Source: Peredibacter starrii
GTDB taxonomy: Bacteria; Bdellovibrionota; Bacteriovoracia; Bacteriovoracales; Bacteriovoracaceae
Assembly (NCBI RefSeq): GCF_034259205.1
Contig: NZ_CP139487.1
Span: 2,418,001 to 2,482,000 of the forward strand
Length of the DNA stretch: 64,000 nucleotides
Direction of reading: 5' to 3'
Positions within the stretch are counted from its first letter, which is position 1, and the number at the start of each line of letters is the position of its first letter. Below the pieces are notes generated by a model that saw nothing but the letters and a program-made list of their open reading frames with translations, was not told the DNA's origin and made no database searches. This document shows positions 32,777-46,475 of the stretch, piece after piece. The translations under genes and the position numbers were made by a program.

Positions 32777-32800
32777 ATTTCCCATGTTACAGTGACTCCC

Positions 32801-33592
32801 ATGGGAAATAGTCAGGCATACTATCTTACAAAGTTAAGAGAGGACCTCTCTATCAAGCAGAGAAACAATCCTCACTACTCGCTTCGCGCGTACGCTCGAG
32901 ATATTGGTATTCACCCAGCAACTCTAAGCCAGATCATCAATGGTAAACGTCCTCTTCCAATGAAGGACTCAGCGAGTGTTGCTCAGAAATTGAACCTGGG
33001 TCCAAAAGAAAAGACCCTCTTCATGGAGAGCTTACTCCGCAGTAAATCGACTCTGGACCAAATCAAACTCTCAGATGAAGACACCCGTTTTATTCTCGAT
33101 GAGTCTTACTACAAGGTCATTGCAGAATGGGAACACTACGCGCTTTTAGAACTTTATGATCTAAAAGATTTCAAAGGAACTCCCGAAGAAGTTGCGGCCA
33201 GACTTGATCTCACGCTGAATCGAGTTGATGTGGTCATCAAGAACTTACTGACTTGCGGACTGTTAGAAAGAGATGCTGAAGGAAACCTTCAGAAGGCCCA
33301 CGCCCGAATCACCACAACTGAAGACATAAAGAGCCAGGCCCTACGAGACTCTCACAAAGAAGTGCTCGCCATGGGGTCGAATAAACTCGACGAAATTGCT
33401 GTTGAGTTACGTGACTTCTCTTCGTTAACTATGGCACTAGATCTGAACAAACTGCCTGAGGCCAAATCCATCATCCGCGAGTTCCGTCTGAAGATGATTG
33501 AGATGCTTGAGGGTGGGGAACGCACTGATGTCTATCAGCTTGCGATTCAGTTCTATCCTTTAACGAAAATTGAAGACACTGTTAAGCATTAG
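32801..33592 (+). CDS. TIGR02147-family regulator (DUF4423)
   Basis: A 263-residue protein of the TIGR02147 family, common in Bdellovibrio-like bacteria and Fibrobacter. It has an N-terminal helix-turn-helix (SLRAYARDIGIHPATLSQIINGKRPL region, residues 25-52), a second winged-helix-like region (TPEEVAARLDLTLNRVDVVIKNLL) and the conserved C-terminal FSSLTMALDLNKLPEAKSII. A GTG 9 nt upstream is an alternative start. It is followed 9 nt later by a secreted protein gene behind GGAG, forming an operon. It is the best candidate for the factor reading the GCTACA-N3-TGTAGC operators. Confidence 0.85.
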   Translation: MGNSQAYYLTKLREDLSIKQRNNPHYSLRAYARDIGIHPATLSQIINGKRPLPMKDSASVAQKLNLGPKEKTLFMESLLRSKSTLDQIKLSDEDTRFILDESYYKVIAEWEHYALLELYDLKDFKGTPEEVAARLDLTLNRVDVVIKNLLTCGLLERDAEGNLQKAHARITTTEDIKSQALRDSHKEVLAMGSNKLDEIAVELRDFSSLTMALDLNKLPEAKSIIREFRLKMIEMLEGGERTDVYQLAIQFYPLTKIEDTVKH

Positions 33593-33601
33593 GAGACTCT
33601 C

Positions 33602-34687
33602 ATGAAAAACATCTTCCTTATTGCAGGTCTGTTAGCTCTTAGCTTGAACTCATTTGCAAGTGGAGAGAAAGGGAACGGCGGTTATTCTGTCGTTTGTCGC
33701 GATGAGAACAACTTCATTCTTTCAGCTGAGCTTCTTGATATCTACGAAGGTAAAACCATCTATAAGTTAGAATATCCTACGGCAGGTGAGAACTTTGCAG
33801 TGGACACGCTTCTGACAGTTGCAAAATACAAAATGAAAGAACACACAACGTTCTCTTCAAAACTAGAAAAAGAGCTCGCTCTGGTTGATCAAAATATGCT
33901 TTTCATCCCCCTAGGAAACGAGCTTGAGTCAACTGATGACGCTTTTCCGGTGATTAAGCGTCGGGGTTGTAAGTTCGAACAACTGGCGAACTATACAGAC
34001 GAAGGTGAGCTGATTGTTTCGCAAGAGATCTATGATGAACTCGATAATGTAAACAAAGCGGCCTTCAGACTGCATGAGGCGATTTACTCTCTTAGAAGAA
34101 AGTCCCGTGGAGATGAAACATCTGAGGCCACTCGTCGCCTTACGGCCCATATTATGGCCAAAAATGGTAATCAAAAAACGATTGATCGCCTGACAAATGA
34201 ATCTATGTTCCAACCGGATGTAAAAAAACTTCCATGCGGTCTAAGGGGCACTATTGAAGAGCGCATCGAGAGCTGCAGCTACCAGGCACGTCCAGTTGGT
34301 GGAATGTATCTTGTAACGAGAACCCAGGACATGAAAGAAGTTTGGAAGGACTTCGGCTCTAATCTCCTTTGGAGTGACCGCCTTCCCTCAAAAATGGGAC
34401 ACTTCATGGCGGAAAAGGCCTGTCAGGAAAAAGACATGCCCGAGATGGCCTACTTAAATCAATTCAAGTGGCGTCTTCCTACGAGTGCTGAATACTTTGG
34501 CCCACAAGAGTTTTTGGCCTTCGTTCTACCAAACAATGCAGGAGCGGATGGTGCATATAAGTTCTGGACCAGCACTGTGAAAGCGAAATTCGCCATGGTG
34601 TTTAACGGTGCCACAGGTGAAATGAGTTATGAGTATTTAAGTGATAGAAAAGTAGAATCAGTTCGTTGTGTAACAAAACTCAGATAA
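33602..34687 (+). CDS. Secreted protein with C-terminal Lcl/DUF1566-like domain, paralogue A
   Basis: A 361-residue exported protein (signal MKNIFLIAGLLALSLNSFA-SG). The mature protein starts GEKGNGGYSVVCRD, a start shared with its paralogue at 44967, and includes a conserved RLHEAIYSLRRKSRGDETS helix. After about residue 215 comes a second domain ending WRLPTSAEY, FWTSTVKAKF and VRCVTKLR, typical of the DUF1566/Lcl C-terminal fold. It sits 9 nt after the TIGR02147 regulator. Its original terminator is split by an IS element. Function unknown, probably cell-surface. Confidence 0.75.
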   Translation: MKNIFLIAGLLALSLNSFASGEKGNGGYSVVCRDENNFILSAELLDIYEGKTIYKLEYPTAGENFAVDTLLTVAKYKMKEHTTFSSKLEKELALVDQNMLFIPLGNELESTDDAFPVIKRRGCKFEQLANYTDEGELIVSQEIYDELDNVNKAAFRLHEAIYSLRRKSRGDETSEATRRLTAHIMAKNGNQKTIDRLTNESMFQPDVKKLPCGLRGTIEERIESCSYQARPVGGMYLVTRTQDMKEVWKDFGSNLLWSDRLPSKMGHFMAEKACQEKDMPEMAYLNQFKWRLPTSAEYFGPQEFLAFVLPNNAGADGAYKFWTSTVKAKFAMVFNGATGEMSYEYLSDRKVESVRCVTKLR

Positions 34688-34701: not shown

Positions 34702-34728
34702 GTAAACTGTACCCCATAAAAAGTACAT

Positions 34729-35541
34729 TTAAAAAAAACCGCTTAATAATAGCCCTCGGTATTCTGCCGGGGGCTTTTTATTTAAACCCTTTTGGGGCCT
34801 TTCTTCATTATAATATTTGATGGTACTGGATACCACCTTTTCAACCTCTTCATATGATCGACATTTTTTAATCTCTAAGAGATCTTTGAAGTGACCAAAA
34901 AATGATTCAATTGGTGCGTTATCTAGGCAATTACCTCTCCGTGACATCGACTGAGTTACACCTGCTAGCCTCAGAACTGCTCTAAATTCTTCATTAGTAT
35001 ATTGGAAGCCTTGATCTGAATGAATCATTAGATCAGTTCTTTTCTCGATTGGAATCTTACTCAGCAATTCTTTGAACTCGCATGCAAATGCAGATACTGT
35101 TGGTGTTTTCATTAATTTGTAAGAGACGATCTCGTTAGTCGCAAGGTCTTTGGTCGCTGACAAGAAAGCTTTGTCACAATTTCCATAATACAAGTAAGTC
35201 ATATCTGTCGAATACACCTGATCTGGAAGTGGTGGATAGAAGTCTCTTTTAAGTAAGTTTGGTATTTCGACATGCTCCCCAGACTTCAAAGGGATTGCGC
35301 GATAAGGATTTCGACGACGGATTTTTGTTTCAAATCCATACTCTCGTTTAATTCTGGCGATCTTTTTGTGGTTTATAACATGTCCATCTCTTCGCATGAG
35401 TAAATCAAGCGTGATGATACCTGCTTTTTTCCTACTTCTCTCGTGATAATGCTTAATGATCTTACATGCCATTCTATCTCTTTCTTGGCGGGCCTCTGAG
35501 GATTTTCGAGAGGAATAAAATCCACTTCGACTAACAGACAT
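34729..35541 (-). CDS. IS3-family transposase OrfB (DDE integrase)
   Basis: A 270-residue catalytic subunit starting MSVSRSGFY, with an HTH_21-like start and the rve integrase core. The catalytic acids are visible in STDMTYLYYG (D), MIHSDQGFQYTN (D) and NAPIESFFGHFK (E). The frame stays open upstream (GEAISKDPSLNRSYLCRL) to the end of orfA, one frame back. This is the usual arrangement for an OrfAB fusion made by -1 frameshifting. The sequence SRRGNCLDNAPIESFFG places it near the IS150/IS3 groups. Confidence 0.93.
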   Translation of the reverse strand: MSVSRSGFYSSRKSSEARQERDRMACKIIKHYHERSRKKAGIITLDLLMRRDGHVINHKKIARIKREYGFETKIRRRNPYRAIPLKSGEHVEIPNLLKRDFYPPLPDQVYSTDMTYLYYGNCDKAFLSATKDLATNEIVSYKLMKTPTVSAFACEFKELLSKIPIEKRTDLMIHSDQGFQYTNEEFRAVLRLAGVTQSMSRRGNCLDNAPIESFFGHFKDLLEIKKCRSYEEVEKVVSSTIKYYNEERPQKGLNKKPPAEYRGLLLSGFF

Positions 35542-35597
35542 TAAACGACAAAGATAGGAGCGATTTAACGATGGATCTTTGGAGATGGCCTCACCGA

Positions 35598-35981
35598 TTA
35601 AAGAAAAAACAGCGGATCGTCTTCGGTGAGACCTTGGGCCTTTTTTAGCTGAGCATTGATCTCCTTTTGGAGAGCAAGTTCGGCTTTGAGCTCCTCGATA
35701 GTCATTTTATTAGGATCTTTCCGGCGACCACGCTTCTTTGGTACATTTTTAAACTTTTCTTCTCTTCTCCATCTATTCAGTGAGGAGTCAACGTACTTCT
35801 TATCGAAGCAGTTAACACTAAGAGTATCATTGAAGAATTGTTGACGAGTTCTACCGTCATCTACTCCATGGAGCATGAGCCGTTTAAATTCATTGCTGAA
35901 CGAAATAGATTTTTCGGTAATTTTAATAACGTAGGGATTAGTTGTGAGCTTTTTGCGCTCAGAAAGAGAAAAGGCCCTCAT
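35598..35981 (-). CDS. IS3-family OrfA (helix-turn-helix protein)
   Basis: A 127-residue DNA-binding protein that would recognise the IS ends, with a helix-turn-helix region around residues 30-70 and a C-terminal leucine/Glu-Lys coiled coil (MTIEELKAELALQKEINAQLKKAQ) for multimerisation. It ends within CTG TTT TTT CTT TAA; the six-T run (35604-35609, minus strand) is a likely -1 slippage point leading into the orfB frame. Confidence 0.88.
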   Translation of the reverse strand: MRAFSLSERKKLTTNPYVIKITEKSISFSNEFKRLMLHGVDDGRTRQQFFNDTLSVNCFDKKYVDSSLNRWRREEKFKNVPKKRGRRKDPNKMTIEELKAELALQKEINAQLKKAQGLTEDDPLFFL

Positions 35982-36062
35982 AATCTGCTCCTTTTAAGGA
36001 TTTTAGCCCATTTTTTAGAAAAGCGGTTTTTTTAGCTTGTCTAGAAAATGGGGTACAGATCA

Positions 36063-44848: not shown

Positions 44849-44865
44849 TTACACACTTCATCTGC

Positions 44866-44880
44866 GCTACATTTTGTAGC
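44866..44880. promoter_or_regulatory. GCTACA-TTT-TGTAGC operator
   Basis: A perfect 6-3-6 palindrome upstream of the secreted paralogue B, 22 bp before its -35 box, giving a centre near -66. The same element recurs at 46119 (perfect) and 46328 (one mismatch), each before a structured RNA unit. The location suits an activator site. Confidence 0.7.
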
Positions 44881-44902
44881 ACTAAAATTTCTTATGATTT
44901 CC

Positions 44903-44966: not shown

Positions 44967-46061
44967 ATGAAACAATACCTCTTAGTCGCGGCAATGCTTG
45001 CTGGATTATTATTCTGTCTCAGGGCCCTTGCCGCTGGCGAGAAAGGTAATGGCGGGTATTCAATCGTTTGTCGTGATGCCAATGGCCTTATTGCTTCAGC
45101 AGAACTGTTGGATACATATGAAGGACGTCTTCTTTATAAAAAAACTTATTCTGTAGATCTGAATTCAGTTGAAGAGCTGGTTAGAGTTGCTCAAGACCGC
45201 GTTCGTAAATATGTTCTTTTTGCTTCTAAATTAAATAAAGAAATTGATCTCATCGAAAAAAACCTGGTTTTCATCCCAGAGGGCCACGAGCTTGAGTCAA
45301 CTGAGGACGCTTTCCCTGTGATTAAGAAGAAAGGTTGTGAGTTTGAGCAACTGGCAAATTACACTGAGGCCGGCGAAGTATTTGTCTCTCAGGAGATCTT
45401 CAATCGAATTGATAATTTAAATAGGGCCGCTCTTATTCTTCACGAGGCAATCTACTCTATTCGTCGCAAGGCCCTGGGTGAGACGACTTCACAAAACACA
45501 CGCCGCTTAGTGGCCCAATTAATGGCAGTAAATCCAGATCAAGCGATCATTGAAAAACACGTGATGGAATCTCTTCAGCAACCAACTCATGCCAACCGTC
45601 CTTGTGGCCTGACAGGATCTATTGAAGAGCGCATGGAAAATTGCTCTTATCAGGTTCCGCAACGATTCAATATGGTTCTGGTAACTAGAACAGAAAATCT
45701 CAAAGAAGTATGGCTGGATGTGAATAACAACATACTTTGGAGTGAACGTCTGCCGACTAAAATGAATTTTGCCAATGCTAAAGAGGCCTGTAGAAAGGTC
45801 ACTGAAGAAATGGCCTTCTTAGATGAGTTTCAATGGCGTCTCCCTTCTGGAACTGAATTTCAGATTTCAGGGGAATCCGTTATGAGTGCCTTCAATTATC
45901 GTAATGGACCAGAAGAGAATAACTGGTACTGGTCTTCCACGGTTAAAGGCCGGACAATTGTCATTTTCAATTCGCTTGATAGTACAACCACCTATTCCCC
46001 GTTCACCAATAGCCGCAGTGGGTCAGTCCGTTGCGTATCGCCTGTGGAGTTAAACTTCTGA
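44967..46061 (+). CDS. Secreted protein with C-terminal Lcl/DUF1566-like domain, paralogue B
   Basis: A 364-residue exported protein (signal ending LAA-GE) whose mature start GEKGNGGYSIVCRD matches paralogue A at 33602. The two share ELESTDDAFPVIK-like and RPCGLTGSIEERMENCSYQ segments, LHEAIYSIRRK, and the ending WRLPSGTEF, YWSSTVKGRT and VRCVSPVEL typical of DUF1566/Lcl domains. The overall similarity clearly indicates a gene duplication. It has its own promoter and operator and is directly followed by two predicted small RNAs under the same operator type. Confidence 0.78.
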   Translation: MKQYLLVAAMLAGLLFCLRALAAGEKGNGGYSIVCRDANGLIASAELLDTYEGRLLYKKTYSVDLNSVEELVRVAQDRVRKYVLFASKLNKEIDLIEKNLVFIPEGHELESTEDAFPVIKKKGCEFEQLANYTEAGEVFVSQEIFNRIDNLNRAALILHEAIYSIRRKALGETTSQNTRRLVAQLMAVNPDQAIIEKHVMESLQQPTHANRPCGLTGSIEERMENCSYQVPQRFNMVLVTRTENLKEVWLDVNNNILWSERLPTKMNFANAKEACRKVTEEMAFLDEFQWRLPSGTEFQISGESVMSAFNYRNGPEENNWYWSSTVKGRTIVIFNSLDSTTTYSPFTNSRSGSVRCVSPVELNF

Positions 46062-46118
46062 TTCAACAAAGGCCGGAGCACCCGTCCTTGTATAAGTCCT
46101 GCCCGTTGCAGATGATTT

Positions 46119-46133
46119 GCTACAGATTGTAGC
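46119..46133. promoter_or_regulatory. GCTACA-GAT-TGTAGC operator of RNA unit 1
   Basis: A perfect 6-3-6 palindrome. Fourteen bases after it lies GATTCATT, and 43 bases after it a -10-like TATTCT (46176-46181). Both offsets are identical for RNA unit 2, so operator and promoter were duplicated or selected as one block. An extra half-site GTTGCA lies just upstream. Confidence 0.7.
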
Positions 46134-46187
46134 ATTTTTCCAAATTGATTCATTTTCCTGACCCATAACTAGTAGTATTCTATAGTT

Positions 46188-46265
46188 ATCAGCGACATGA
46201 ATGTGTGAGAGCTTCATATCGCCTGTTGGGTGAGCCCTGTGTGTGAGAGTACAGGGCTTTTTTTT
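46188..46265 (+). ncRNA. Predicted structured small RNA, unit 1
   Basis: About 78 nt from the predicted start to the end of the T tract. Hairpin 1: GCGA-c-ATGAA (46192-46201) pairs with TTCAT-a-TCGC (46213-46222); the 11-nt loop has the core GTGTGAGAG. The linker is CTGTTGGGTG. Hairpin 2 is a terminator, AGCCCTGT (46233-46240) with ACAGGGCT (46251-46258), loop GTGTGAGAGT, then eight Ts. There is no ribosome binding site or long reading frame. Unit 2 repeats this layout with a different hairpin 1 stem but the same loop core. Function unknown. Confidence 0.75.
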
Positions 46266-46327
46266 GCCCAAAATCCTAGAATTCCCAATCCATACATTCA
46301 TATAAAAAGTGCCTGTTGCATTTGGAT

Positions 46328-46342
46328 GCTACATTTTGTTGC
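46328..46342. promoter_or_regulatory. GCTACA-TTT-TGTTGC operator of RNA unit 2
   Basis: A 6-3-6 palindrome with one mismatch. GATTCATT follows at +14 and an extended -10, TGC-TAATTT (hexamer at 46385-46390), at +43, as for unit 1. A GTTGCA half-site also lies just upstream. Confidence 0.65.
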
Positions 46343-46396
46343 AGCGGCCTCCAGAGATTCATTCCCTCAGATAGAGTTCGGTGCTAATTTCCATCC

Positions 46397-46475
46397 ATCG
46401 AAGCAACTGTGTGAGAGTAGTTGTTTCGACTGTTGGTAAAAAGCCCTGTGTGTGAGAGTACAGGGCTTTTTTTTT
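46397..46475 (+). ncRNA. Predicted structured small RNA, unit 2
   Basis: About 79 nt. Hairpin 1: TCGAA-G-CAACT (46398-46408) pairs with AGTTG-T-TTCGA (46419-46429), 11 pairs including one G-U, loop GTGTGAGAGT. The linker is CTGTTGGTAAAA. Terminator hairpin: AGCCCTGT (46442-46449) with ACAGGGCT (46460-46467), loop GTGTGAGAGT, then nine Ts. Compared with unit 1, the first stem differs in sequence but keeps pairing, which supports a real RNA structure; both loops and the CTGTTGG linker are conserved. Confidence 0.75.

Follow-up and report, generated by a model that had tools for sequence, protein, structure and literature searches.

Introduction

In Escherichia coli, the structured small RNA (sRNA) OxyS contacts one mRNA, fhlA, through its loops at the ribosome-binding site and in the coding region, according to a summary in PMC2946933 that cites Argaman and Altuvia 2000. 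sX13 of Xanthomonas and RNAIII of Staphylococcus aureus are Hfq-independent, carry the same short motif in several loops and act near translation starts (PMC3771888). OmrA and OmrB of E. coli are tandem siblings of 82-88 nt with a common regulator and with outer-membrane protein genes among their targets (PMC4211561). In Bdellovibrio bacteriovorus, the 445-nt merRNA contains a c-di-GMP riboswitch (PMC3627812).

Here we describe a tandem pair of sRNA-like units in a 64,000-nt stretch of the Peredibacter starrii genome (the window) and compare it with these systems. As summarized for OxyS-fhlA (PMC2946933), we propose that loops contact one mRNA at two sites, the ribosome-binding site and the coding region. 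However, OxyS-fhlA uses Hfq in that summary, whereas none was detected in the genus studied here; moreover, the 5' hairpin and the terminator of our units carry the same loop core, the predicted seed on the flank of the Shine-Dalgarno sequence (SD) lies in a linker, and Rfam searches gave no sequence relation. With sX13 and RNAIII the units share a repeated loop motif, probable Hfq independence and, as proposed here, start-proximal action, but the motif of those RNAs is C-rich and aimed at G-rich mRNA sites (PMC3771888), while ours reads GUGUGAGAG and differs from species to species along with the target. OmrA/OmrB are likewise tandem siblings with shared and divergent parts; in our pair loops, linker and terminator are shared and the first stem diverges, and regulator, targets and sequence differ, with no Hfq detected. 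merRNA and the attack-phase sRNAs are comparable as sRNAs of another predatory bacterial group (PMC3627812). Rfam found no riboswitch family in our units, unlike merRNA. By the tests made, the units belong to none of OxyS-fhlA, sX13/RNAIII or OmrA/OmrB.

Results

Two structured units in tandem

The two units, of about 75 nt each, are intergenic on the plus strand, and each consists of a 5' hairpin, the linker CTGTTGG and an intrinsic terminator (Table 1), as expected of trans-encoded antisense sRNAs. We found GTGTGAGAG in all four loops (at 46203, 46241, 46409 and 46450). The motif has six copies in the window against 0.45 expected, a number reached by none of 100 shuffles, and three of the four whole-genome copies of TGTGTGAGAGT fall at this locus. 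RNA folding gave strong support for unit 2 (z = -5.5) and weaker support for unit 1 (z = -1.9). When hairpin 1 is compared between the units, both bases differ in four pairs, a single base differs in one more, and one position is a C-A mismatch; pairing of the 10-bp stem was lost when the partner was slid by 1-3 columns.

These results confirm the initial annotation, which had described a tandem pair of structured units whose four loops have a common core and whose first stem differs yet pairs in both, the latter borne out by the four compensatory pairs. Its view that no named RNA family has this pattern agrees with Rfam 15, where no family reached the gathering threshold for the window units or the units of relatives and weak matches lay far below it. 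Its tandem pair stands as well, although the repeat is larger than described: the units sit in a duplication with a period of 209 bp that takes in the palindromes upstream of each (46118-46134 and 46327-46343).

Table 1. Positions of the sRNA units, neighbouring features and T1 (window coordinates, except for T1)
Feature	Position	Strand	Basis
TIGR02147-family regulator, candidate palindrome binder, before Lcl_C paralog 33602-34687	32792-33592	+	gene order in relatives
Palindrome CGCTACATTTTGTAGCA, upstream of Lcl_C gene	44865-44881		sequence
Secreted Lcl_C-domain protein, 364 aa	44967-46061	+	Lcl_C E 4e-7, slightly under Pfam cut-off
Palindrome TGCTACAGATTGTAGCA, putative operator of sRNA 1	46118-46134		sequence
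Promoter-like hexamers CTGACC-17-TATAGT, before sRNA 1	46158-46186	+	9/12 matches, weak
sRNA 1 (unit 1)	46192-46265	+	
sRNA 1 hairpin 1, stem 46192-46201/46213-46222, loop GTGTGAGAG 46203-46211, UUCAU (anti-start codon) in 3' strand	46192-46222	+	folding, stem comparison, cofolding
sRNA 1 linker CUGUUGG, complementary to CCAACAG preceding target SD	46223-46229	+	sequence
sRNA 1 intrinsic terminator, 46233-46258 plus T tract, loop GTGTGAGAGT	46233-46265	+	folding, terminator call
Palindrome TGCTACATTTTGTTGCA, putative operator of sRNA 2	46327-46343		sequence
sRNA 2 (unit 2)	46398-46475	+	
sRNA 2 hairpin 1, stem 46398-46408/46419-46429, loop GTGTGAGAGT (46409-46418)	46398-46429	+	folding, stem comparison
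sRNA 2 linker CUGUUGG (CUGUUGGU, target match 8 nt)	46430-46436	+	sequence
sRNA 2 intrinsic terminator, 46442-46467 plus T tract, loop GTGTGAGAGT	46442-46475	+	folding, terminator call
T1, secreted 196-aa protein	G000:C1:197235-197822 (L004:3233-3823)	minus	ORF, antisense match

Loops and linker match the start region of T1

The annotation had proposed a search for targets complementary to CUGUUGG or to the loop; the start region of one gene, T1, is complementary to both. Across the genome (4.15 Mb), GTGTGAGAG is followed by CTGTTGG within 30 nt at three places, the two units and 197807-197840, while the reversed control pattern of loop and linker had no match in the same 4.15 Mb. The third place is the antisense of the T1 translation start, CCAACAGGAGAATCTCTCATGAAAACTCTCACAC. 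The linker is complementary to CCAACAG directly 5' of the T1 SD (GGAG), and both loops are complementary to ACTCTCACAC, which lies in codons 3-6. Beyond the loop and linker considered earlier, part of stem 1 is complementary to the target too: UUCAU in its 3' strand can pair with AUGAA, which contains the start codon. This is so for unit 1 and for the sRNAs of four relatives (G081, G082, G086 and G087).

The T1 protein contains four conserved cysteines and has no Pfam or NCBIfam family. Its AlphaFold2 model was fairly confident (pLDDT 83.6), and neither structure comparison with the PDB nor a profile search of PDB sequences returned a match. The codon bias of T1 was 0.612, whereas the 50 long window ORFs gave 0.385 +/- 0.025 with a maximum of 0.474. 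This points to very high expression; with so extreme a bias, T1 is probably among the abundant proteins of the cell.

Other start regions carry parts of the pattern. Among the CTCTCACAC sites inspected (all but the last two in the genome), a linker site lay beside T1 only; a gene for a 378-aa secreted protein at 3772873, for example, has the loop site alone. CCAACAGGAG has nine copies in the genome, seven of them at start codons, including those of T1 and its paralog T2, and six of these seven genes encode proteins with a signal-peptide-like start. Apart from T1 and T2, three of the five genes have a loop match of at least 7 nt, compared with 7% of the signal-like background. Beyond T1 and T2, four signal-peptide-like genes with CCAACAGGAG at the start codon (G000:C1:893631, 2005111, 2940992 and 3222846), three of them with loop matches of 7-8 nt nearby, are possible additional targets by this comparison.

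Two further elements of the leader were noted. A third block, AUCUCACAC, near the likely 5' end of the T1 leader, could take the terminator loop; it is absent from G098 and was dropped. Just before the SD region, a 5'-UTR hairpin, ACUUC-N4-8-GAAGU, is conserved in T1 and most upstream copies in relatives, and it perhaps serves mRNA stability.

sRNA and target change together in relatives

The relatives in our collection are metagenome-assembled Bacteriovoracaceae, and the source genome (G000) falls in their genus. T1 homologs were present in 16 of 125 family genomes. The annotation had expected further copies in relatives, and six have the sRNA (G098, G093, G081, G082, G086 and G087), each 3' of the same Lcl_C-domain gene. 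The loop, which the annotation took to be conserved as such, is not: the loops of the relatives differ, as do most linkers, yet they complement the target of their own species.

In G098, a perfect palindrome precedes the T1 homolog and recurs 3' of the Lcl_C ortholog, where the hairpin-linker-terminator unit lies. The linker of this unit is CTGTTGG, its loops are GCGAAA, and the target has TTTCGC where T1 has ACTCTCACAC. G093 has the same loops as G098, and its hairpin and terminator contain compensated pairs. CCATCAG and ATGAAAACGCTCGCAATC are present in the targets of G081, G082, G086 and G087, and from these we predicted the linker CTGATGG and the loop GCGAGCG before reading the sRNAs. In each of the four genomes a unit was then found 3' of the Lcl_C gene; its linker is CTGATGG and its loop TTGCGAGC. 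Thus CTGATGG goes with CCATCAG and CTGTTGG with CCAACAG, and GCGAAA goes with TTTCGC, TTGCGAGC with GCTCGCAA. This co-variation rests on three independent loop types in related genomes of one genus. G094 has the Lcl_C gene, but neither T1 nor an sRNA unit was detected there, and in G083 the locus stops at a contig end.

The covariance model that the annotation had recommended (R1, built from both units) gave weak, mostly terminator-like matches in relatives, since loops and linker differ there, and these were rejected; one, L043, looks like coding sequence. MAFFT misplaced the linker of G098 and G093. An acyl-CoA synthetase neighbour was rejected as a syntenic anchor.

The contiguous linker match to the best target copy was 8 nt in G000, 11 nt in G098 and 10 nt in each of G087, G082 and G086; between the CTGTTGG and CTGATGG groups it was mostly 4-5 nt, with single values up to 7. 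Matches of loop 1 and loop 2 were 10 and 10 nt in G000, 6 and 7 in G098, 8 and 10 in G087, 8 and 6 in G082, and 8 and 9 in G086, compared with mostly 3-6 nt between groups. The target score was reached by none of the background start regions sampled from each genome (164 for G000, 59 for G098, 73 for G087, 57 for G082 and 51 for G086), and by few of 2000 shuffled target leaders (0, 1, 0, 4 and 0, in the same order). The loop matches alone, which are short in G098 (6+7 nt) and G082 (8+6 nt), were not significant in shuffles there (90/2000 and 183/2000). With the partners joined by a spacer, 95% of the cells of the linker-target helix were paired and three of its ten pairs had changed on both sides. 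CTGTTGG, which had been suggested as a seed, behaves as one: it is complementary to the T1 SD flank, and the linker covaries with the target in relatives.

The local alignment of each sRNA with the reverse complement of its own target leader outscored all but at most two of 1000 shuffles. The G081 sRNA aligned over about 37 nt with two gaps (TTGCGAGC-TTCATAGTT-...-TCCTGATGGT), an alignment that therefore takes in the start codon. Cofolding with T1 gave -19.8 and -20.9 kcal/mol for the two units, and the G081 sRNA with its own target gave -25.1. Some non-cognate values were also strong: unit 1 with T2 gave -22.3, and the G098 sRNA gave -14.9 with T1 versus -11.8 with its own target. Complementarity to a distant mRNA start region thus exceeds background, and pairing is kept through matched changes in relatives, as expected of antisense sRNAs.

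A palindrome shared by sRNAs and target

A 17-bp palindrome, TGCTACA-N3-TGTAGCA, precedes both units and the Lcl_C gene at 44967, and two weaker copies precede T1. A search of the window with at most three mismatches returned three matches, all in the sRNA locus. In seven of the eight sRNA genes found, hairpin 1 is preceded by GCTACA at a distance of 70-73 nt; judging from position, an activator that binds there would be well placed upstream of the promoter. The promoter-like hexamers before sRNA 1 match at chance level, and promoter calling gave none before unit 2.

The relatives have a TIGR02147-like regulator gene immediately ahead of the Lcl_C gene, and for G098 the encoded protein was confirmed to belong to TIGR02147; in G081, G082, G086 and G087 a palindrome-like site lies upstream of the regulator gene. 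That the TIGR02147 regulator binds the palindrome is our guess from these positions. Because the sRNA genes share this palindromic site with the target, both would answer to a single regulator, possibly a TIGR02147-family protein. Another TIGR02147-family gene of the source genome (L063:689-1492) has the site TGCTACATATTGTTACA directly upstream (G000:C1:1532357) and is possibly autoregulated.

Directly downstream of the Lcl_C paralog at 33602-34687 we found an IS3-like element (window 34705-36058) with two minus-strand ORFs called from sequence (34729-35541 and 35598-35981). It occupies the position 3' of the Lcl_C gene where relatives have the sRNA, and may have displaced an ancestral copy. 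A scan for viral contigs gave no match.

Hfq and other known RNA classes

Hfq (PF17209) was detected in none of 26 genomes of the genus, compared with five of 14 controls, in a search that a very divergent Hfq might escape. The protein expected for an Hfq-dependent sRNA is therefore not seen in the genome, and pairing would not rely on it. The GGA found in hairpin loops of CsrB/RsmZ is absent from the four loops, and the CCCC/UCCC motif of the C-rich sX13/RNAIII loops is absent from the window units and those of relatives.

Discussion

Our results indicate that the sRNA pair is real and of an undescribed family, and that antisense pairing to one abundant secreted protein family accounts for the repeated loop. 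We are fairly confident that the units are tandem trans-acting antisense sRNAs without detectable Hfq that would be transcribed and repress translation of T1; some T1 paralogs are probably repressed as well. In the mechanism we propose, the 5' hairpin loop and the terminator loop, which are identical, would serve as alternative docking sites for codons 3-6. Docking of a loop there would open hairpin 1, so that its UUCAU strand could pair with AUGAA (in unit 1, G081, G082, G086 and G087). The single-stranded linker CUGUUGG would then pair with CCAACAG, closing over the SD flank, and pairing would spread across SD and AUG and block ribosome binding.

Other explanations of the locus were considered. 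The units lie just downstream of the Lcl_C gene, their terminators are nearly identical, and GAGAG-containing loops occur in other terminators of the family, all of which would fit read-through 3' ends or duplicated terminators of the Lcl_C gene rather than separate sRNA genes. We consider this very unlikely, because each unit has its own upstream palindrome, the 5' hairpin shows compensatory change and target complementarity persists in relatives; a 3'-UTR origin would still allow an antisense function. A protein-sequestering RNA like CsrB/RsmZ, with incidental target complementarity, would also fit the loop core, whose four copies are what a sponge should show. This, too, seems very unlikely: the loops have no GGA, the linker covaries too, and the loop sequence is entirely different in relatives and tracks the target mRNA, which would not be expected of a conserved protein-binding site. 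The initial annotation had left open whether the loops bind a protein or another RNA, and the same observations favour RNA pairing and speak against the protein.

The pairing might also be real and have a main outcome other than T1 repression, such as a sponge, activation or control of a wider set of secreted-protein mRNAs. We regard this as unlikely but worth weighing. Seven genes, six of which are signal-peptide-like, have CCAACAGGAG at their start, with the loop matches described above in three of the five beyond T1 and T2, and the operators common to sRNA and T1 mean that the levels of both may rise together. However, the longest matches are to T1, and they cross the SD, the start codon and the early codons, the classical place of repression. 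Repression of T1 by a tandem antisense pair thus appears to account best for the locus.

We also suggest, with slightly more doubt than confidence, that the units represent a new Bacteriovoracaceae sRNA family without detectable Hfq, in which the 5' and terminator loops share an antisense core that is rewritten together with the target codons, and that may stem from an inverted copy of the target start, as the reverse-complement alignment in G081 would suggest. The kind of system is known; what is new is that repeated loops track the target, that Hfq is not detectable, and the lineage. Our literature search returned no paper on TIGR02147 or on Bacteriovorax sRNAs, and the locus adds an sRNA family, its target and a probable operator in a group for which that search found no sRNA study and in which Hfq was undetected. 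The target is itself an orphan secreted protein family, probably abundant in the cell. The matched RNA and mRNA changes across species are strong sequence evidence for pairing. With two loops and a linker all tracking one target, the family offers a way to study sRNA-target coevolution and sRNA origin. If it arose from an inverted copy of the target start, it would be a natural record of that coevolution.
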